Origin: Synechococcus sp. CS-1329
GTDB lineage: Bacteria; Cyanobacteriota; Cyanobacteriia; PCC-6307; Cyanobiaceae
Assembly: GCF_025128055.1 (NCBI RefSeq)
Contig: NZ_JAHLYS010000012.1
Coordinates: forward strand, 1-64,000
DNA: 64,000 bases
Reading direction: 5' to 3'
Positions 5,149 to 38,793 of the stretch are shown in pieces. The notes beneath the pieces were generated by a model. That model worked only from the letters and a program-made list of their open reading frames with translations, did not search any database and was not told where the DNA came from. The translations under genes and the position numbers were made by a program. Every line of letters begins with the position of its first letter. The stretch's first letter is position 1.

Positions 5149-6873
<1,725 letters not shown>

Positions 6874-30323: not shown

Positions 30324-30339
30324 TGGAGGGCGGAAGCAG

Positions 30340-30452
30340 TTTCTAGGGTTCCGGTTGGCATCAGTTCGCTGCGGCGTTCTCAAGCCAATGTCTGGTCCGA
30401 GAGAAGCTCACCGGGGTCACCCGGTTGCACGGAGGGATAAAAGCCCGGGAGA
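30340..30452 (+). promoter_or_regulatory. Guanidine-I (ykkC) riboswitch aptamer
   Basis: All conserved blocks of the guanidine-I class appear in order: CTAGGGTTCCG at 30343-30353, CTGGTCCGAGAG at 30392-30403, then CACGGAGGGATAAAAGCCC and GGGAGA up to 30452. The variable arms pair as expected: TTGGC with GCCAA in the first arm and ACCGG with CCGGT in the second. The RNA senses free guanidine and normally turns expression on. Its position directly before gdmH agrees with the enzyme assignment. Confidence 0.95.
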
Positions 30453-30474
30453 CCGCAACCCCCACCTCCGTGCA
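30426..30474 (+). promoter_or_regulatory. Alternative 10-bp stem linking aptamer core to the gdmH start
   Basis: TGCACGGAGG (30426-30435), part of the conserved aptamer 3' core, is exactly complementary to CCTCCGTGCA (30465-30474), which ends five bases before the gdmH ATG. The helix cannot coexist with the folded aptamer and has no following T run. It therefore looks like a translational rather than a termination switch: helix formed means aptamer broken and start site covered. The complementarity is seen; the mechanism is inferred. Confidence 0.5.
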
Positions 30475-30479
30475 TTGCC

Positions 30480-31685
30480 ATGAGTGCATCTCCAGGCCCA
30501 GAAGGGGCCTTCGACCGGCGTAGAGAGGCGTCGTCAGTGGGCCGCCAGGGCGCCGAGGCCCTGGAGAAGGAGGCCCGCCTGCCGCTCACCGGCTGGCAGC
30601 AGGAGGTGGAGCAGGGCCTGCGCTATGGCCTGGAAGCCGCCGAGAGCATCGTGGATCGGCGCATCTCCACCTTCTCGCGCGGCGAGCTGCCCCACTACGC
30701 GGGCATCAACACCTTCATGAAGGCGCCCTACATCGAGGACGTGAATCGCGTCGGCGAATTCGATGTGGCGATCCTGGGGGTGCCCCACGATTCCGGCACC
30801 ACCTACCGGCCCGGCACCCGCTTCGGCCCCCAGGGCATCCGGCGCATTTCAGCCCTGTACACGCCCTACAACTACGAGATGGGGGTGGATCTGCGCGAGT
30901 CGATCCGGCTCTGCGATGTGGGCGACATCTTCACGATTCCCGCCAACAACGAGAAGAGCTTCGATCAGATCTCCAAGGGTGTGGCGCACGTGTTCGCCAG
31001 CGGCGCCTTCCCGATCATCCTCGGCGGTGATCATTCGATCGGCTTTCCCACCGTGCGGGGCGTCTGCCGTCATCTGGGCGACAAGAAGGTGGGCATCATC
31101 CACTTCGATCGCCATGTCGATACCCAGGAGATCGACCTCGACGAGCGCATGCACACCTGCCCCTGGTTCCATGCCACCAACATGGCCAATGCGCCCGCCG
31201 AAAACCTGGTGCAACTGGGCATCGGCGGCTGGCAGGTGCCGCGCGAGGGGGTGAAGGTGTGTCGCGAACGGGGCACCAACGTGCTCACCGTGACGGACAT
31301 CTGCGACATGGGCCTGGAGGCGGCGGCGAAGTTCGCGATTGAGCGCGCCACCGACGGCACCGATTGCGTGTACATCTCCTTCGACATCGATTGCATCGAC
31401 GCCGGCTTTGTGCCCGGCACCGGCTGGCCCGAACCGGGCGGCCTGCTCCCGCGCGAGGCGCTCAAATTGCTGGAGCTGATCGTGCGCAACGTGCCGGTCT
31501 GCGGCCTGGAGGTGGTGGAGGTGTCGCCCCCCTACGACATCAGCGACATGACCTCATTGATGGCCACCCGCGTGATCTGCGATGTGATGGCCCACCTGGT
31601 GGTGAGCGGCCAGCTGCCCCGCAAGCAGAAGCCCGCCTGGTTGCACGACAGCAGCAACATGGCCGTCGATCAGAAGTGGAGATAA
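30480..31685 (+). CDS. gdmH: Nickel-dependent guanidine hydrolase (ureohydrolase family)
   Basis: GdmH hydrolyses guanidine to urea and ammonia. The 401-residue protein is a ureohydrolase with metal ligands His185 (GGDHS), Asp210, His212 and Asp214 (in HFDRHVDTQ), and Asp302 and Asp304 (SFDIDCID). The Arg in DRHVD, where agmatinases have Ala, and the phrase DERMHTCPWFHATNM match my recollection of the Synechocystis guanidine hydrolase Sll1077. The long N-terminal segment (residues 1-90) is also characteristic. The ykkC riboswitch upstream and hypA/hypB downstream support the assignment over agmatinase; a separate SpeB is at 55593. There is no Shine-Dalgarno sequence immediately before the ATG. 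A GTG at 30537 is an alternative start. Confidence 0.93.
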   Translation: MSASPGPEGAFDRRREASSVGRQGAEALEKEARLPLTGWQQEVEQGLRYGLEAAESIVDRRISTFSRGELPHYAGINTFMKAPYIEDVNRVGEFDVAILGVPHDSGTTYRPGTRFGPQGIRRISALYTPYNYEMGVDLRESIRLCDVGDIFTIPANNEKSFDQISKGVAHVFASGAFPIILGGDHSIGFPTVRGVCRHLGDKKVGIIHFDRHVDTQEIDLDERMHTCPWFHATNMANAPAENLVQLGIGGWQVPREGVKVCRERGTNVLTVTDICDMGLEAAAKFAIERATDGTDCVYISFDIDCIDAGFVPGTGWPEPGGLLPREALKLLELIVRNVPVCGLEVVEVSPPYDISDMTSLMATRVICDVMAHLVVSGQLPRKQKPAWLHDSSNMAVDQKWR

Positions 31686-31689
31686 CGCC

Positions 31690-32082
31690 ATGCATGAAGT
31701 GGACATGACCAAGTGCCTGCTGCTCTCGATGGAGGAGTGGAAGCGGGGGCAGGAGCCCCAGACCCCCGTGGTGACGGCCGTGCACCTGCAGGTGGGTGCG
31801 TTCACCTGCGTGGAGCCCGAGGCGCTGCGCTTCACTTTCGCCGCCGCCGTCCAGGGCAGCTGGCTCGATGGCTCAACACTCGAGATCGAGTCCGTTCCCC
31901 TCAGGGCCCGCTGCCTGGCCTGCTCCAGCGCCTACAACCCAGACCCTGAGCGCGCCTACCGCTCCCCCTGCTGCGATCGGCCCATGGAGGAGATCGTCAG
32001 CGGCCGTGAGCTGCGCATTCGCTCCGTCGATTACAGCCTGCCGCACCAGATTTCAGATCCCGCCGCCGTTCCCCCGCGCTGA
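31690..32082 (+). CDS. hypA: HypA-like nickel metallochaperone
   Basis: HypA family proteins insert nickel; this copy probably serves GdmH, since no hydrogenase genes are present. The 130-residue protein keeps the nickel-binding N-terminus Met1-His2-Glu3. The zinc site has Cys75-x-x-Cys78 as usual, but the second pair is adjacent (Cys94-Cys95) where standard HypA has C-x-x-C, so zinc geometry may differ. The C-terminal [14 protein letters not shown] is family-typical. It starts four bases after gdmH and lies five bases before hypB. Confidence 0.9.
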
Positions 32083-32086
32083 TCCC

Positions 32087-32791
32087 ATGCACATGCCCCT
32101 CAGCGACACCCTTGGCCTCAATCTGCTGGCCGCCAATCAGCACCAGGCGGAGCACAACCGTGAGCACTTTGAGGCCTGGAACCTGCTCTGTCTCAATGTG
32201 ATGAGCAGCCCCGGCGCCGGCAAGACCTCCCTGCTGGAGCGCACGATCACCGCACTGGCCCCGCAACTGGAGATGGCGGTGCTGGAGGGCGACATGACCA
32301 CCCAGCTCGACGCCCAGCGCCTTGAAGCGGTGGGGGTGCCGGTGGTGCCGATCACCACCGGCCGCGCCTGCCACCTGGATGCGGCGATGGTGAGCGGTGG
32401 CCTCAGGCAGCTGCAGGCGCGGCTCAACCCAGCCGATCTCGATCTGCTCTGGGTAGAGAACGTGGGAAATCTGGTCTGCCCGGCTGAATTCGAGGTGGGC
32501 GAGCACCTCAAGGTGGCCCTGCTCAGTGTCACCGAAGGTGAGGACAAGCCGCTCAAGTATCCGGTGATGTTCCGGGAAGCCGATTGCGTACTGATCACCA
32601 AGGTGGATCTGCTCCCTTACCTCTCCATTGACGTGAGCCGCATCGAGGCGCACATCCATGCCGTCAATCCAGAGGCGGTGGTGTTTCAGCTCTCGGCCAG
32701 CTCCGGTGCCGGGCTCGATGCCTGGCACCAGTGGTTGCTGGCCACCACTCGTGAGCGCAGCTGCCGGGCGGAGCTGGCGGAGGTGGGATGA
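32087..32791 (+). CDS. hypB: HypB-like nickel-insertion GTPase
   Basis: This SIMIBI GTPase works with HypA to load nickel. The 234 residues contain the P-loop SSPGAGKT, the family phrases [12 protein letters not shown] and [26 protein letters not shown], and the G-domain [10 protein letters not shown]. The N-terminal Cys/His-rich nickel-binding extension of many HypB proteins is absent. A second ATG two codons downstream (32093) is possible. The stop overlaps the next gene by four bases. Confidence 0.93.
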
Positions 32792-34173
32792 GCACTCTGT
32801 ACTCTCCGGCCTCAACAGATCAACTCACGGAACTCCAGCTCAGCTGGCAGCAGCGCAAGCTCGACCTGATCAGCCAGGGGGTGAGCTATGCCCTGGCCAG
32901 TTTCGTGGATCTGCACGGCAGCAGCAAGGCCAAGGCGGTACCCCTGGATCACTTCGAGGCGATGCTCGCCGGCTCAGAGCTCTTCACTGGTGCTGCTCTC
33001 GATGGCGTTCCCCAGGATGTCAGCGACGATGAGGTGGCCGCCATTCCCGATCTGGCCTCGGCCACGGTGCTGCCCTGGCGCCGTGATGTGGTCTGGCTGG
33101 CCAGCAGCCTGCACCTGCACGGCCAGCCGTTCGAGGCCTGCAGCCGCAACATCCTGATCCGGGCTCTCGCAGCAGCTCAGCGCATGGGCTTTCGTTTCAA
33201 CCTCGGCATCGAGACGGAATTCTTCGTGCTGCGCCGGGGCGTCGATGGGTCCCTGCAGCCCGCCAGCTCCCGCGACACCCTCGAGAAACCCTGCTACGAC
33301 CTCCCGAGCCTGCTCGACAACCTGCCCTGGCTCGATGAGCTGGTGCAAGCGATGAACGATCTCGGCTGGGGGGTGTATTCCTTCGATCATGAAGATGGCA
33401 ATGGGCAGTTTGAAACCGACTTCGCCTATGCAGAGGCGCTCACCATGGCGGATCGCCTCACCTTCTTCCGGCTGATGCTCAAGGAGATCAGCCACCGCCA
33501 TGGCTTGATTGCCAGCTTCATGCCCAAACCCTTCAGCGATCGCACCGGCAGCGGCGCCCACTTCAACATGTCGTTGGCGGATCCAGCCACGGGCCGCAAT
33601 CTCTTTGTGGGTGATTCGGCGGGCAGGATCTCCCTCCTGGCGGAGCAGTTCATCGCTGGGATCCTGCGCCATGCCCCGGCGATCTGTGCGGTGATTGCCC
33701 CCACGGTGAACAGCTACAAGCGTCTGGTGGCTCAGGGCTCAATGAGCGGCTTCACCTGGGCGCCGGTGTTCATCTGCCACGGGAACAACAACCGCACCAA
33801 CATGCTGCGCATCCCAGCCGCTGCTGATCGGGTGGAATGCCGTGCCGCCGACAGTGCCTGCAATCCCTATCTTGCTGCGGCGATGATCCTTGCCGCTGGA
33901 TTGGAAGGCATCCGGGAAGAGCTGGATCCAGGCGATCCCAATCTCGTCAATGCCTACCGGCTCAGCGCCGAGCAGCGGGCCGAGCGGGGGTTGAAGGTGT
34001 TGCCACGAACACTGGCTGAGGCGATTGAGGCCTTTGCCGCAGATCCATTGTCGCGCACGGTGTTCGGTGATGCCATGGCAGACGCGTTCATCGACTACAA
34101 ACGAGCGGAATGGGCCGACTATCACGGTCGGGTGTCGGAGTGGGAGCTCTCTCGTTATCTCGAGTTCCTCTAG
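32788..34173 (+). CDS. Glutamine synthetase-family ligase, type III/GmaS-like
   Basis: This 461-residue ATP-dependent ligase is of the glutamine-synthetase superfamily. Its sequence resembles the type III subgroup that includes gamma-glutamylmethylamide synthetase (GmaS): [53 protein letters not shown] and [19 protein letters not shown]. It also has the substrate-binding [11 protein letters not shown]. GmaS enzymes join an amine to glutamate. In this operon the amine could be ammonia from guanidine or methylamine from methylguanidine. It is coupled to hypB by an ATGA overlap. The substrate is inferred; glutamine synthesis itself remains possible. Confidence 0.85.
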
Positions 34174-34243
34174 AGCCACCACGGCTGCGCGTTTGTTTTC
34201 CCTCAAATCCTGATTCTTTTGTCTTTACTTTGCTGCTCAACTT

Positions 34244-35344
34244 ATGATCTCCAATCACGATCCTGATCCCAGCTCCAACTCCAACTCCAACTCCAGCCCC
34301 ATCGGCTCAGCTGCCGGTTCGCCCTCCAGTCATCAGCGTTCGCGGCAACCACGCCGGCTCCAGCGGATGGTTGGATTCGGCCTGTTGGCATTGATGGGCG
34401 GAGGCCTGCTGGCCAGCTGCCAGAGTCCGCCGCAGACAGGCGCCACGCCGGTGCGGATCGGCTACAGCGCCTGGCCCGGCTGGATCCCCTGGAAGGTCAC
34501 TGAGGAGAAGGGCCTGTTCACAGAGGCCGGGGTTCCGGTGACCCTGCAGTGGTTCGATGGTTACCTCGATTCGATCAACGCTCTCAACGCAGGCCAGCTG
34601 GATTGCAACAGCCAGACCCTCAACGACACGATCAGCTCCATCGCCGGTGGCGCCGATCTGCGGGTGGTGCTCACCAACGACAACTCCACCGGTAACGACC
34701 AGGTCATTGCCGCCGAGGGCATCACGACGGTGCCCCAGCTCAAGGGCCGCAAGGTGGCCGCGGAGGAGGGAACTGTTGATCACTACCTGCTGCTGCTGGG
34801 CCTGAAGCAGGCGGGCCTCACGGCCAGTGACATCGAGTTCGTGCCCCTGGAAACTGGAGCGGCCGCGGCGGCCTTCGTGGCCGAGAGGGTGGATGCGGTG
34901 GGTGTGTTCGCTCCCTTCACCACCCAGGCTCTCAAGCGCCCCGGCAGCACCACCCTGATTTCCTCCAAGGAGTTCCCCGGCGCCATCAGCGATCACCTGG
35001 TCTGCCGCAGTGAGTTTGTGGAGAAGAACCCCGAGCAGTTGCAGAAGGTGGTGAACGCCTGGTTCGCCACCCTCAAGGAGATCAAGGCCAATCCGGGGCC
35101 CAGCCTCACGATCCTGGCGGCCCGGGCGGGGGTGAGCGAGGCCGAATACAAGGAGTACGACGCCGGCACCACGATCTTCACGCTGGAGCAGAACCGTGAG
35201 GCGCTCAAGCCCGGCAACACCATGGCTTCGCTGCCCTTTGCCGCCGCTGAGATCAGCACCTTCCTGCAGGAGGTGGGGCTGGCCAAGACACCCCCGGATC
35301 TCACCAAGCTCTTCGACGCCCGTTTCGTCGATGCGGCCCCCTGA
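34244..35344 (+). CDS. ABC transporter substrate-binding lipoprotein (NrtA/SsuA/TauA type)
   Basis: This is a 366-residue periplasmic receptor of the nitrate/sulfonate/taurine-like class, here likely binding guanidine or a related cation. The body begins VRIGYSAWPGWIPWKVTEEKG. The lipobox LLASC ends at Cys59 when the ATG at 34244 is used; starting at Met42 (34367) gives a conventional signal with Cys18. The extra N-terminus is low-complexity Ser/Asn followed by Arg-rich residues. A 70-base, T-rich gap separates it from the ligase gene, and its stop overlaps the permease start by one base. Confidence 0.9.
   Translation: MISNHDPDPSSNSNSNSSPIGSAAGSPSSHQRSRQPRRLQRMVGFGLLALMGGGLLASCQSPPQTGATPVRIGYSAWPGWIPWKVTEEKGLFTEAGVPVTLQWFDGYLDSINALNAGQLDCNSQTLNDTISSIAGGADLRVVLTNDNSTGNDQVIAAEGITTVPQLKGRKVAAEEGTVDHYLLLLGLKQAGLTASDIEFVPLETGAAAAAFVAERVDAVGVFAPFTTQALKRPGSTTLISSKEFPGAISDHLVCRSEFVEKNPEQLQKVVNAWFATLKEIKANPGPSLTILAARAGVSEAEYKEYDAGTTIFTLEQNREALKPGNTMASLPFAAAEISTFLQEVGLAKTPPDLTKLFDARFVDAAP
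34273..34296 (+). repeat. Hexanucleotide tandem repeat in the binding-protein leader
   Basis: CTCCAA occurs three times in a row, followed by CTCCAG, coding the SNSNSNSS stretch. Units are six bases, so length changes would stay in frame. Confidence 0.8.
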
Positions 35345-36114
35345 TGCGGTTCTCTGAGCGACCTGCCCTGCGCTCCCCCTGGTTGCTCGGTCCGCTCGGG
35401 ATCGCTGCGGTGCTGCTGGCCTGGTCCCTGATCAGCCTCAGTGGCGCGGTGGATCCTCTTTTCCTGCCCAGCCCGCCGGCGGTCTGGCAGGCGGTGGTGG
35501 AGCAGTTCCAGGAGGGGATCCTGGTGGCCGATGCGATCGCCAGCATCCGGCGAGTGTTCCTTGGCTTTGCGCTCTCGGCGGCTCTGGCCCTGCCCCTGGG
35601 CATCGCCATGGGCAGCAACCCGTTGATCTGCCGCCTGCTGGAGCCCCTGCTGGGGTTGATCCGCTACATGCCGGCGCCGGCCTTCATCCCCCTGCTGATC
35701 ATCTATTTCGGCCTGGGGGAATTGCCAAAGGTGCTGCTGATCTTCATCGGCACCTTCTTCTTCAATACGCTGATGATCATGGATGCGGTGAAGTTCGTAC
35801 CCCAGGAGTTGCTCGAAACCGCCCTCACCCTGGGCGGCCGGGGCCTGCCGATCCTCACCCGTGTGGTGGCCCCCTACATCGCCCCCCAGGTGATTGATGC
35901 CTACCGCATCAACATGGCCTCAGCCTGGAACCTGGTGATCGTGGCGGAGCTGGTGGCCGCCAACGAAGGTCTGGGCAAGCGCATCAGCCTGGCCCAGCGC
36001 TTTCTGCGCACCGATGAGATTTTTGTGGGGTTGATCGTGATCGGCCTGATCGGCCTGCTGATCGATCTGGGGTTCCGCGCCGTGCTGCGGCGCAGTTGTC
36101 GCTGGGCCAGCTGA
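35344..36114 (+). CDS. ABC transporter permease (SsuC/NrtB type)
   Basis: This is a 256-residue inner-membrane permease with about six hydrophobic segments. The binding-protein-dependent transport signature is visible in the cytoplasmic loop (ETALTLGGRGLPILTRVVAPYIAP, quoted in part), which couples to the ATPase. FYMPAPAFIPLLI-like RYMPAPAFIPLLIIYFGLGE is typical of the nitrate/taurine permease group. It lies between the binding protein (one-base overlap) and the ATPase (one-base gap). Confidence 0.93.
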   Translation: MRFSERPALRSPWLLGPLGIAAVLLAWSLISLSGAVDPLFLPSPPAVWQAVVEQFQEGILVADAIASIRRVFLGFALSAALALPLGIAMGSNPLICRLLEPLLGLIRYMPAPAFIPLLIIYFGLGELPKVLLIFIGTFFFNTLMIMDAVKFVPQELLETALTLGGRGLPILTRVVAPYIAPQVIDAYRINMASAWNLVIVAELVAANEGLGKRISLAQRFLRTDEIFVGLIVIGLIGLLIDLGFRAVLRRSCRWAS

Positions 36115-36115
36115 G

Positions 36116-36883
36116 ATGCATCTCTCCGTGCATGGCGTCAGCAAGAGCTTTGGTGAAGGCCGTCAGGCCAAGTTGGTGCTCGACGACATCAGCTTTTCGA
36201 TCAAGTCCGGCGAATTCGTGGCTTTGGTGGGCAGCTCCGGTTCGGGCAAGTCCACGGTGATGCGCCTGATCGCCGGCCTGGAGCGCCCCAGTGCCGGAGT
36301 GATTGCCCTCGATGGCCAATCGGTGCGTGGGCCCGGCTCTGATCGGGGCATGGTCTTCCAGAAATACAGCCTCTACCCCTGGATGACGGCGGCCCAGAAC
36401 GTGGCCTTCGGCATGTCGCTGCAGGGGTTGCCCAGGCCCCTGGTGCGCGAGCGCACCGCTTACTTCCTGGAGGTGGTCGGTCTACAGGATGCCGCCCGGC
36501 GCCTGCCGAAGGAACTCTCGGGGGGCATGCAGCAGCGGGTGGCGATCGCCCGCGCCCTGGCCGCCGACCCGAAGGTGGTGCTGCTGGATGAACCCTTCGG
36601 CGCCCTCGACCTGCAGATCCGCGAATCGATGCAGGAGTTCCTCTATCAGCTCTGGCAGCGCTCCGGCCTCACGGCGCTCTTGATCACCCACGACCTGGAG
36701 GAGGCTTTGCTGCTGGCCCAGCGGGTGCACATCATGGCCCCGCGCCCGGGGCGGATCGTGCGCACGGTGGAGGCCGATCTCGACCGCTCCAACCTGCCCC
36801 ACCTGCGGATGTCAGCGCCGTTCCTGGAGCTGCGGGAGGAGCTGGTCACCACCCTGCGCAATCTCGATGCCGCCGCCAGTTGA
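36116..36883 (+). CDS. ABC transporter ATP-binding protein (SsuB/NrtD type)
   Basis: This is a 255-residue ATPase with Walker A GSSGSGKST, Q-loop MVFQKYSLYPW, signature LSGGMQQR, Walker B VVLLDEPFGALD and H-loop THDLEEA. It forms the importer with the two preceding genes. The Rieske gene follows after ten bases on the same strand. Confidence 0.95.
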   Translation: MHLSVHGVSKSFGEGRQAKLVLDDISFSIKSGEFVALVGSSGSGKSTVMRLIAGLERPSAGVIALDGQSVRGPGSDRGMVFQKYSLYPWMTAAQNVAFGMSLQGLPRPLVRERTAYFLEVVGLQDAARRLPKELSGGMQQRVAIARALAADPKVVLLDEPFGALDLQIRESMQEFLYQLWQRSGLTALLITHDLEEALLLAQRVHIMAPRPGRIVRTVEADLDRSNLPHLRMSAPFLELREELVTTLRNLDAAAS

Positions 36884-36893
36884 GGGGAACGCC

Positions 36894-37976
36894 ATGGCAG
36901 CCGACGGGGCCCCAGTCGTGAGTCGCCAATTCCTCAGCGCTGATCACTATCGCTCGCCTGACGCCGCTGAGCGGGAACGGGCGATCTACGCCCCGCACTT
37001 CTGGCATCCACTGGTGCCCCTCTCCAGCCTGCCCGAGGGTTCGGCCCTGGCCCTGGAGTTGCTGGACCTGCCCCTGCTGCTCAGCCATCCCCCCGGCGGA
37101 CCACCCCAGGTGTTCCTCAACCGTTGCCCCCACCGCGGGGTGGCGCTCCTCTCGCCCGCTGCCGAGGCCCAGGCCTGCCGCCGCCTGGTGTGTCCGTACC
37201 ACGGCTGGACCTACGGCCTTGACGGCCTCCTGCGCGCCGCCGCGCGGGAGGGGGAGTTCGCCGGAGCCTTCTCACGCCAGGACTGGCCCCTCGTCGCGCT
37301 GGCCTCTGCCGTGCGTGGCTCGATGCTCTGGGTGGCGGTCGGGCCCGATCCCCTGCCCCTGGAGCAGCAACTGGACCTGATGGAGCAGGAGCTGGGCGCG
37401 GAGCTGGAGCGGCCGCGAGTGTTGCTGGCCAGCCTGGAGCGCGAGCTGGCCTGCAACTGGAAGATTGCCCACGACAACACCCTCGACGACTATCACGTGG
37501 CGATCGCCCATCCCACCACCCTGCATCGGCAGCAGGGGCCGGTGCGCCACTACCGCCATCGCTTCGCCATGCACACCAACCTGCTGGCCACGCCGGTGGT
37601 GAACCCGGGCCAGAGCGGCTCAGGGGCCAAGGAGTTCCTCACCTTTGGGGCGCCGCCCTGGATCCACTGGCTGGTCTGGCCCGATGGCCGCCTGGCCCTG
37701 ATCAGCTTTCCGCCCCTCGATCCCGGCCGCTGCCGCCTGCAGGTGTGGCTGCTGGGGGACCCCTCCCAGCAGCCCCGTGGCCAGGAGTGGATCGAGGAGC
37801 TGGGCAACTTTCTCGAGGAGGACCGGGTGTTGGTGGAGGCGGCCCAGCGGGGCTACAGCAGTGGTCTGACGCCTGGCCCGGCCCATCGCCTGGAGGCGCG
37901 CATCCTGCATCAGCAGGCGCTGTACGCGCGGATCATGGGCCTGGTGGAGCCGCCGGCACCGTCAGCTTCCGCCTGA
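36894..37976 (+). CDS. Rieske [2Fe-2S] oxygenase alpha subunit-like protein
   Basis: This is a 360-residue non-haem iron oxygenase component. The Rieske cluster ligands are in CPHRG and CPYHGW (Cys-x-His...Cys-x2-His). A mononuclear iron site is suggested by DNTLDDYHVAIAHP, with two His and acidic residues. Such enzymes hydroxylate or N-/O-demethylate small molecules and need a separate reductase, which is not encoded nearby. The ATG at 36894 has a GAGGGG ribosome-binding site; the longer frame start lies inside the ATPase gene. Its place at the end of the guanidine operon suggests a nitrogenous substrate. It overlaps the next, convergent gene by 44 bases. Confidence 0.88.
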   Translation: MAADGAPVVSRQFLSADHYRSPDAAERERAIYAPHFWHPLVPLSSLPEGSALALELLDLPLLLSHPPGGPPQVFLNRCPHRGVALLSPAAEAQACRRLVCPYHGWTYGLDGLLRAAAREGEFAGAFSRQDWPLVALASAVRGSMLWVAVGPDPLPLEQQLDLMEQELGAELERPRVLLASLERELACNWKIAHDNTLDDYHVAIAHPTTLHRQQGPVRHYRHRFAMHTNLLATPVVNPGQSGSGAKEFLTFGAPPWIHWLVWPDGRLALISFPPLDPGRCRLQVWLLGDPSQQPRGQEWIEELGNFLEEDRVLVEAAQRGYSSGLTPGPAHRLEARILHQQALYARIMGLVEPPAPSASA

Positions 37977-38793
37977 GCCAGGCGGCCATGGCCGTGTTGA
38001 TCTCCAGCAGATCGGCCACCGGCTGGTGGGTGAAGGGAAGGGTGGGCAGGTAGCCGTCGGGGCCGAATTCAGGTGTGAGCGTGAAGCAGGGTTCGCCGCG
38101 CGCTCGGGCCCGCTGCAGGAACAGGTCCCAGCAGGCCCAATGGGCCGCCAGGGCCTCGGCGTGCTCAGGCGCCATGGGGTGGCTCACCTGAGGACCCTGG
38201 GCATGGCCCACCCGGGCATGGATGTGGTCGACCCGATCGGCGATGGCCTGGATCGGTGCCAGCTCCGGAGTCATCAGCCGCTCGCAGGCGACGCACCAGT
38301 GGCTCAGATCAGCGCTGAGGCGCAGGCTCGGATAGCGCTCCAGCCAGTGGTGAAGAAGCCAGGGGTCCGCCAGGCTGCGCGAGCGGTGGGTTTCGAAGCT
38401 CAGCGGTGCCGGCGCGGCGGCGGTCAGCTCCAGGGCCCGATCCCAGAACCACTGCTGATCGGCCCAGTTCCAGCTGTCGCTGCCGCTGATCACGGTGATG
38501 CGCAGGGGATTCAGCCCGCGGCAGCGCTCCAGCTGGTCGGCCAGCTGCCGGAGATGATCGGCTGGTGTCAGGGCGAGATCGGGCACGTAACCGTTTCCCG
38601 TCACCAGCTCCAGCACCAGGGCCAGGCCGGCGGCAGAGAACTCAGCCGCCACGGCCTCGGGATCTGGGCCCGAGAGCACCGGATGGTTGAGATTGCTCTC
38701 CAGGCCATCAAAACCGTGACGGCGAGCCCGATCGATCACCGCCTGGCGCTGGCCCTCCACTCCCCAGAGGCTGTGCAGGATCAGGCAGCGCAT
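37933..38793 (-). CDS. Xylose isomerase-like TIM-barrel protein
   Basis: A 286-residue protein with features of the AP-endonuclease-2/xylose-isomerase-like TIM-barrel family: an N-terminal strand MRCLILHSLWG, GFDGLESN, the acidic strand SFETHRS, SADLSHWC, and HIHARVGH, which together can bind a divalent metal. Members include sugar isomerases and epimerases, so the reaction cannot be named. It is convergent with the Rieske gene; a link to guanidine use is not shown. Confidence 0.75.
   Translation of the reverse strand: MRCLILHSLWGVEGQRQAVIDRARRHGFDGLESNLNHPVLSGPDPEAVAAEFSAAGLALVLELVTGNGYVPDLALTPADHLRQLADQLERCRGLNPLRITVISGSDSWNWADQQWFWDRALELTAAAPAPLSFETHRSRSLADPWLLHHWLERYPSLRLSADLSHWCVACERLMTPELAPIQAIADRVDHIHARVGHAQGPQVSHPMAPEHAEALAAHWACWDLFLQRARARGEPCFTLTPEFGPDGYLPTLPFTHQPVADLLEINTAMAAWLRRKLTVPAAPPGP

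Follow-up and report, generated by a model that had tools for sequence, protein, structure and literature searches.

What do a glutamine synthetase (GS)-like ligase and a Rieske oxygenase do in a cyanobacterial guanidine operon? We addressed this question in the freshwater cyanobacterium Synechococcus sp. CS-1329, in the first 64,000 nucleotides of contig NZ_JAHLYS010000012.1 (the window), where a Guanidine-I riboswitch, gdmH, hypA, hypB, the ligase gene, genes for the substrate-binding protein (SBP), permease and ATPase of an ATP-binding cassette (ABC) importer and the Rieske gene follow one another on the plus strand, neighbours overlapping by a few bases at the closest and lying 70 bases apart at the widest. 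Domain and Rfam matches confirmed this inventory, order and spacing, as given in an original prediction made from the sequence. Absent from its gene list was TIMb, which encodes a xylose-isomerase-like TIM barrel on the minus strand (37933-38793), converging on the Rieske gene and overlapping it by 44 bases.

We consider it about evenly balanced whether the Rieske enzyme and TIMb together free guanidine from a substituted guanidine, in the manner of the unrelated pair MgdH and MgdL, with the ligase as a separate add-on. Guanidine would bind the riboswitch and switch on ABC import and hydrolysis by GdmH; nickel-loaded by HypA and HypB, GdmH would convert guanidine to urea and ammonia, and urease would consume the urea. 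All this has precedent in relatives and is assigned to the window by homology only. The Rieske enzyme and TIMb would make up a second module, separable from the first. A substituted guanidine, most likely methylguanidine, would be hydroxylated by the Rieske enzyme at the carbon adjoining a guanidino nitrogen; TIMb would then split the N-(hydroxyalkyl)guanidine so formed, releasing an aldehyde together with guanidine that serves as both GdmH substrate and riboswitch ligand. The ligase, a third and mostly independent add-on, would couple glutamate with a small nitrogen-containing cation, which is probably something other than ammonia. We infer the reaction of the Rieske-TIMb pair, its substrate and the substrate of the ligase.

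Research on guanidine was opened up by riboswitches and still asks which of its substituted forms microbes consume and what the natural sources of the free compound are. In a guanidine carboxylase operon of Vreelandella, MgdH, a 2-oxoglutarate (2OG)/Fe dioxygenase, and MgdL, modelled with a beta-barrel, demethylate methylguanidine (PMC12508155, 2025). The window resembles that system in adding an oxygenase and a further protein to a guanidine-riboswitch gene set; going by the published descriptions of MgdH and MgdL, it differs in using a Rieske enzyme and a TIM barrel, and a guanidinase rather than a carboxylase. The Rieske gene itself was noted in 2023 downstream of the cluster in most Synechococcus and Cyanobium genomes that have the cluster, with iron use alone mentioned (PMC10119275). 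An N-methylguanidine route had been put forward as not described before; with these two reports that holds only in part, as some of the route is already in print. A term search of the main text of PMC10119275 gave no match for isomerase, epimerase, glutamine synthetase or TIM barrel, and a literature search confined to open-licence papers found none that places the ligase or TIMb in a guanidine locus. Within the reach of these searches, the TIMb partner, the exchange of its oxygenase and a guanidine-linked ligase clade are new; the functions given for them are predicted.

A Rieske oxygenase and a convergent TIM barrel

Methylguanidine is a sensible substrate, as had been proposed, but the products envisaged for it need revision. 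Release of methylamine and urea by GdmH is unlikely because a comammox guanidinase formed no urea from methylguanidine, a result described there as consistent with previous findings for the cyanobacterial enzyme (PMC11410670, where the results sentence prints methylguanine and the methods methylguanidine); that assay rules out methylamine and urea as the products and has no bearing on methylurea and ammonia. Since the guanidinase formed no urea, a demethylase would be needed. Demethylation by the Rieske enzyme would give formaldehyde and guanidine instead of the methylamine first suggested.

The Rieske gene (36894..37976, plus strand; PF00355 and PF00848) encodes a predicted N-dealkylase of a cationic guanidine compound. 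Its cluster residues C78, H80, C100 and H103 and iron ligands H201, H206 and D310, roles assigned by motif, are invariant across 26 sequences of at least 47% identity. The top Foldseek matches of its structure model (pLDDT 76.3) are CntA and stachydrine demethylase, unlike it in sequence at only about 20-24% identity over the aligned part. These Rieske monooxygenases cleave C-N bonds of small cations, namely quaternary amines, and in this resemble the activity proposed here.

TIMb scored 28.4 against Pfam, below the 31.1 cut-off, and NCBIfam and solved-structure sequence searches gave nothing informative. The fold match comes instead from a structure model (pLDDT 87.2), which aligned to L-ribulose 3-epimerase (3vyl) with Z 19.8 over 254 residues. 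No variation is seen at E134, D162, H165 and E242 among 21 sequences; judging from the fold, these residues may bind metal.

One sample of 292 genomes of the phylum served for the gdmH, ligase, Rieske and TIMb searches (genomes carry G numbers, loci L numbers). gdmH was present in 45 genomes (E 1e-60), a Rieske match in 16 (E 1e-20; nine of these at least 48% identical) and TIMb in nine (E 1e-20), which are the same nine and all carry gdmH. They belong to one family and hence are not independent, and formal odds for this co-occurrence come out too strong; joint presence and absence is the better evidence. Among 26 named cyanobacterial loci fetched with the ligase as query (L061-L086), TIMb and the Rieske gene were both present in 19 and both absent, with room available, in four (L069, L071, L076, L083), the remaining three contigs being too short. 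Whole-genome searches gave the same picture, with both genes absent from all four genomes whose loci lack them and both present in four of four others. TIMb is kept even where it lies upstream of gdmH instead (four of the 19: L072, L080, L084, L086). It is the constant partner of the close Rieske orthologue in this cyanobacterial family.

It is highly improbable that the Rieske protein serves the cluster merely by carrying electrons or as an iron-sulphur protein, with TIMb just travelling along beside it, given the catalytic domain PF00848, the conserved His201, His206 and Asp310, the joint presence or absence of the two genes and the recurrence of TIMb in proteobacterial guanidine loci.

Ten Cyanobium-type loci (L066-L068, L073-L075, L077-L079 and L081; for example L067 16230-19546) carry, within about 0.5 kb of TIMb, a trio of genes for a desaturase-like protein, a MetX-like alpha/beta hydrolase and a GmaS-signature ligase. 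The genome of the window has this trio on another contig (L199 7426-10662).

TIMb and its varying oxygenase neighbours in proteobacteria

We collected 13 proteobacterial TIMb loci: three plasmid-collection records, seven from 321 genomes of the GTDB class of Ferriphaselus, including Ferriphaselus itself (L091), and three from 186 genomes of the order, where a fourth match was Ferriphaselus again. Two Bacteroidota matches at 29-30% identity (Spirosoma, Runella) were left out; the Spirosoma TIMb has a sugar setting. A search of 289 Alphaproteobacteria genomes at E 1e-30, run without a positive control, gave no match, and a plasmid of the alphaproteobacterium Kozakia carries TIMb.

A guanidine-I or guanidine-II riboswitch lies within the stretch in seven of the 13 loci (L091, L212, L223, L224, L228, L245, L247), and four (L091, L212, L228, L245) carry a carboxylase with cgdAB-like genes. 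The carboxylase model is itself named urea carboxylase (TIGR02712, on L088); we call the enzyme guanidine carboxylase because of the cgdAB genes and the riboswitches. An oxygenase is found near TIMb in ten of the 13: a 2OG/Fe enzyme in five (L212, L213, L214, L227, L246) and an FA_desaturase-like membrane protein in the other five (L223, L224, L226, L228, L247), named by Pfam in L212, L223, L226 and L228 and by similarity in the remainder. One TIM barrel alongside three unrelated oxygenase families is what would be expected if all do the same job. In L247, a guanidine-I riboswitch lies immediately 5' of TIMb, and in L223, L224 and L228 a guanidine-II riboswitch stands at the start of the desaturase-like gene. 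The guanidine-II class of V. boliviensis binds both guanidine and methylguanidine (PMC12508155).

Several observations weigh against release of guanidine by a Rieske-TIMb pair. Among cyanobacteria, G054 and G121 end their gdmH operons with a Rieske gene of 32-34% identity and have no TIMb at E 1e-20; their Rieske proteins have Cys in place of Asp198 of the close orthologues. Weak Rieske matches (28-35%) lie distant from gdmH in G027, G062, G172 and G177, and G053 has such a match and no gdmH match. The window operon contains no reductase for the Rieske enzyme. A desaturase-like gene occupies the other side of TIMb in ten of the 19 cyanobacterial loci; it is part of the trio described above, which also occurs without TIMb (L069, L199-L201). 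Among the 13 proteobacterial loci, six have no riboswitch within the stretch, no oxygenase is visible with TIMb in L091 and L245 (the L225 stretch ends too early), and the desaturase-like match in L247 is partial and lies 2.7 kb off with genes intervening. The guanidine-I riboswitch of V. boliviensis does not bind methylguanidine (PMC12508155). Finally, the fold of TIMb is that of sugar epimerases; its predicted action is that of a lyase.

Another point on the same side concerns the substrate. In Klebsiella-type clusters (L213 8024-14914, L227 7224-14105, L246 3083-10119), in which no riboswitch was found, TIMb and a 2OG/Fe oxygenase sit with a ureohydrolase, a binding protein, an ATPase, a class II aldolase and a glyoxylate/hydroxypyruvate reductase. 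Because TIMb pairs there with the ureohydrolase, aldolase and reductase, these clusters may handle a guanidino compound of larger size. The Rieske enzyme and TIMb of the window might likewise act on guanidinoacetate, creatine or an arginine derivative and yield guanidine and, as a larger aldehyde, for instance glyoxylate. The top solved match of the 2OG enzyme is annotated as an ethylene/succinate-forming enzyme, a name that PMC12186494 connects with arginine as a source of guanidine. The Klebsiella-type enzyme may, however, act on another substrate, and at E 1e-5 no such reductase was found in the fetched stretches of riboswitch-linked TIMb loci. We regard a larger substrate as possible but clearly less probable than a small substituted guanidine such as methylguanidine.

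A metallo-beta-lactamase-fold protein and/or an EamA transporter accompanies TIMb in L224 (3797-5480), L226 (7502-10060), L223 (7500-8405) and L245 (4012-4890).

A ligase clade in guanidine loci

The ligase gene (32788..34173, plus strand) matches TIGR03105 with 555 bits (cut-off 469.6), and the original prediction took its product to be GmaS-like. In the numbering of RhGmaS (PMC7948447), it retains Asp177, Glu186, Arg312 and Trp300 of GmaS, and it has Thr48, Ser175 and Asp188 where GmaS has Ala48, Gln175 and Asn188 and glutamine synthetase has Asp at 48. Of the glutamine synthetase ammonia residues, Asp50' is replaced by Thr and the Glu-flap glutamate by Trp. The T48/S175/D188 set recurs in every row of our pocket table with at least 56% identity (L107 being unread at 188) and likewise in the ligases of L118, L226 and L228. 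A quick tree built from 54 chosen rows places these ligases in a 28-row clade (SH-aLRT 100; L118 is a very long branch) separate from both GmaS groups. Loci L108-L117 and L120-L140, scanned with the operon proteins, entered the pocket table and, in part, the tree.

On pocket residues and tree position, we name this ligase neither glutamine synthetase nor GmaS. A plain glutamine synthetase was rejected on pocket and tree together, and GmaS on the Ser175/Asp188 pocket and the separate clade. It shares with GmaS (RhGmaS 7cql, 9qur) the family, the Trp in place of the Glu-flap glutamate, and Asp177, Glu186 and Arg312; unlike GmaS, it sits in an operon in which domain scans of the operon proteins, the part of the genome searched for them, found no N-methylglutamate pathway genes. 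The window genome has a GmaS-signature paralogue on another contig (L199). The database name, type III glutamate--ammonia ligase, thus conceals a separate and largely guanidine-linked group.

T48/S175/D188 ligases lie inside the gdmH operon in the 26 ligase-fetched cyanobacterial loci, and in G170 the ligase gene stands between hypA and hypB of that operon. They adjoin guanidine carboxylase genes and guanidine riboswitches in two Marinobacter loci, Ferriphaselus and G419; in Phormidium (L087) the ligase adjoins a Guanidine-I riboswitch and importer genes. The ligase therefore belongs to guanidine loci of two chemistries, guanidinase and guanidine carboxylase. Ligase genes without gdmH do occur, which the original prediction had named as part of what would count against it, yet the Marinobacter, Ferriphaselus and Phormidium cases are guanidine-riboswitch loci. 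A ligase of at least 67% identity is present in just four of the 45 gdmH genomes.

One further setting is that of a nested subclade of eight rows (SH-aLRT 99), assigned to methylated-amine clusters in the rows other than L093, L098, L100 and L101. This assignment rests on eight named genes of L105, gene groups that recur in others; the clusters of L103, L104 and L107 hold an additional GmaS-signature ligase. L089, L092-L107 and L118 gave no Guanidine-I riboswitch match. A creatininase-family gene lies immediately 5' of the ligase gene in three proteobacterial loci (L091 9199-9960, L226 10266-11036, L228 11873-12604), and a MetX-like alpha/beta hydrolase gene adjoins it in five loci of two contexts (L088 8830-10071, L090 8796-9836, L093 11355, L099 6206, L106 1348).

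The ligase may glutamylate guanidine or methylguanidine itself; Asp188 and the smaller Ser175 would widen the pocket and make it more acidic, to accommodate a planar cation. This proposal draws on the ties of the T48/S175/D188 clade to guanidine loci, with gdmH in cyanobacteria and the carboxylase in Marinobacter, Ferriphaselus and G419, and on the tree, in which guanidine-linked rows flank the methylated-amine subclade. That subclade, however, shares the same pocket, no product-using enzyme was seen in the cyanobacterial operon, and no guanidine gene was seen near the ligase in L089, L092 or L118 (the L089 genome has gdmH on a different contig). Guanidine is moreover a poor nucleophile. We hold glutamylation of a guanidino compound to be a tentative, minority possibility. 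A bolder reading joins it to the previous section: one TIMb would serve Rieske, 2OG/Fe and desaturase-like dealkylases of substituted guanidines, and the T48/S175/D188 ligases would be the first guanidino gamma-glutamyl ligases. This we think unlikely.

A role as an ammonia-scavenging glutamine synthetase, taking up ammonia from GdmH and urease, would agree with the NCBI family name, glutamate--ammonia ligase, and with the release of ammonia by every guanidine route. Against it stand the Thr and Trp in place of the two ammonia residues; RhGmaS, which also lacks both, has a Km for ammonium far above that for methylamine (PMC7948447). We judge this role decidedly unlikely.

The original prediction coupled ligase and Rieske enzyme in one chain, the amine from methylguanidine being captured as a gamma-glutamyl amide, for example gamma-glutamylmethylamide. 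Co-occurrence across genomes bears out that both genes belong to guanidine loci; their coupling fares poorly. We fetched 40 loci from the 45 gdmH genomes, reading three genomes from the searches (G000, G175, G270) and leaving out G051 and G177 (a fragment with a stop). In eight of the 40, from six other gdmH-bearing genomes of the family and two more distant ones, the Rieske gene terminates a gdmH operon without a ligase. Conversely, the ligase occurs without a Rieske match in the guanidine loci of G170, L069, L071, L076, L083, the two Marinobacter, Ferriphaselus and Phormidium. The ligase mostly tracks guanidine rather than the Rieske gene.

Pairing does appear elsewhere, in that a distant Rieske-type gene (25-28% identity) adjoins a ligase of the same kind in L089 (8568-11332) and L118 (10001-21108), possibly an aniline-like pairing of ligase and oxygenase. 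Aniline and 1-naphthylamine dioxygenase systems (AtdA, NpaA; PMC11335346) likewise unite a GS-like ligase and a Rieske enzyme in one gene set and so lend the coupled route a logic, as do the methylated-amine setting of the nested subclade and the absence, shared with GmaS, of both ammonia residues. Unlike in those systems as PMC11335346 describes them, the ligase and Rieske genes here are mostly apart, and the operon has no glutamine-amidotransferase-like partner. With the separate clade, the S175/D188 pocket in place of Q175/N188, the absence of N-methylglutamate genes from the operon and the lack of urea from methylguanidine also against it, we consider a coupled route very unlikely and keep the ligase as an add-on separate from the Rieske-TIMb module.

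Riboswitch, guanidinase and importer

The aptamer of the Guanidine-I (ykkC) riboswitch (30332..30453, plus strand) scores 83.2 bits against Rfam RF00442 (gathering threshold 63) and 94.3 bits against our own model, built from 14 sequences including that of the window. It ends only 26 bases 5' of the gdmH start codon, leaving scant space for a terminator. In a predicted expression platform on the plus strand (30426..30474), 30426-30435 can pair with 30465-30474 over 10 bp without a mismatch; the 3' end of this alternative stem lies five bases ahead of the start codon. Alternative stems of at least 7 bp occur in 18 of 25 orthologous loci, which are related sequences, against 9% of shuffled controls. 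We infer from these features a translational switch.

A riboswitch precedes gdmH in 25 of the 25 cyanobacterial loci that reach that far. The order hypA-hypB-ligase-SBP is common to all 26 ligase-fetched loci; gdmH stands ahead of hypA in the 25 with sufficient contig (that of L085 begins inside hypA), and permease and ATPase genes come next as far as the contigs extend. The gene order is more than chance, because it recurs in all these named loci. Most of the window cluster is already known: riboswitch, gdmH, hypAB and ABC importer make up the cyanobacterial gdmH operon (Synechocystis sll1077 and neighbours; Synechococcus eCAG), and that of Synechococcus and Cyanobium shares the Rieske gene as well (PMC10119275). 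The ligase between hypB and the importer, the TIMb partner and the proposed Rieske function go beyond the published operon.

gdmH (30480..31685, plus strand; PF00491) encodes a predicted Ni-dependent guanidinase by homology, with phmmer scores of 772.9 bits to Synechocystis GdmH (7oi1/7esr) and 586.5 bits to 9fek; no other solved sequence matched at E 1e-60. Adjoining it are genes for a HypA-like nickel chaperone (31690..32082, plus strand; PF01155; TIGR00100 87.6 bits, slightly below the 88.1 cut-off) and a HypB-like nickel GTPase (32087..32791, plus strand; TIGR00073 281.9 bits, cut-off 121.2). The importer comprises the SBP (34244..35344; TIGR01728 SsuA_fam 216.2 bits, cut-off 163.5), the permease (35344..36114; PF00528) and the ATPase (36116..36883; PF00005), all on the plus strand.

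The window also encodes urease alpha (5158-6867), so urea derived from GdmH would be usable. A 5' ureB small RNA (RF02514) lies on the minus strand at 5300-5590, inside the urease alpha gene. In G205, a Glutamine-II riboswitch (L160 17387-17448) lies about 5 kb from the gdmH operon.

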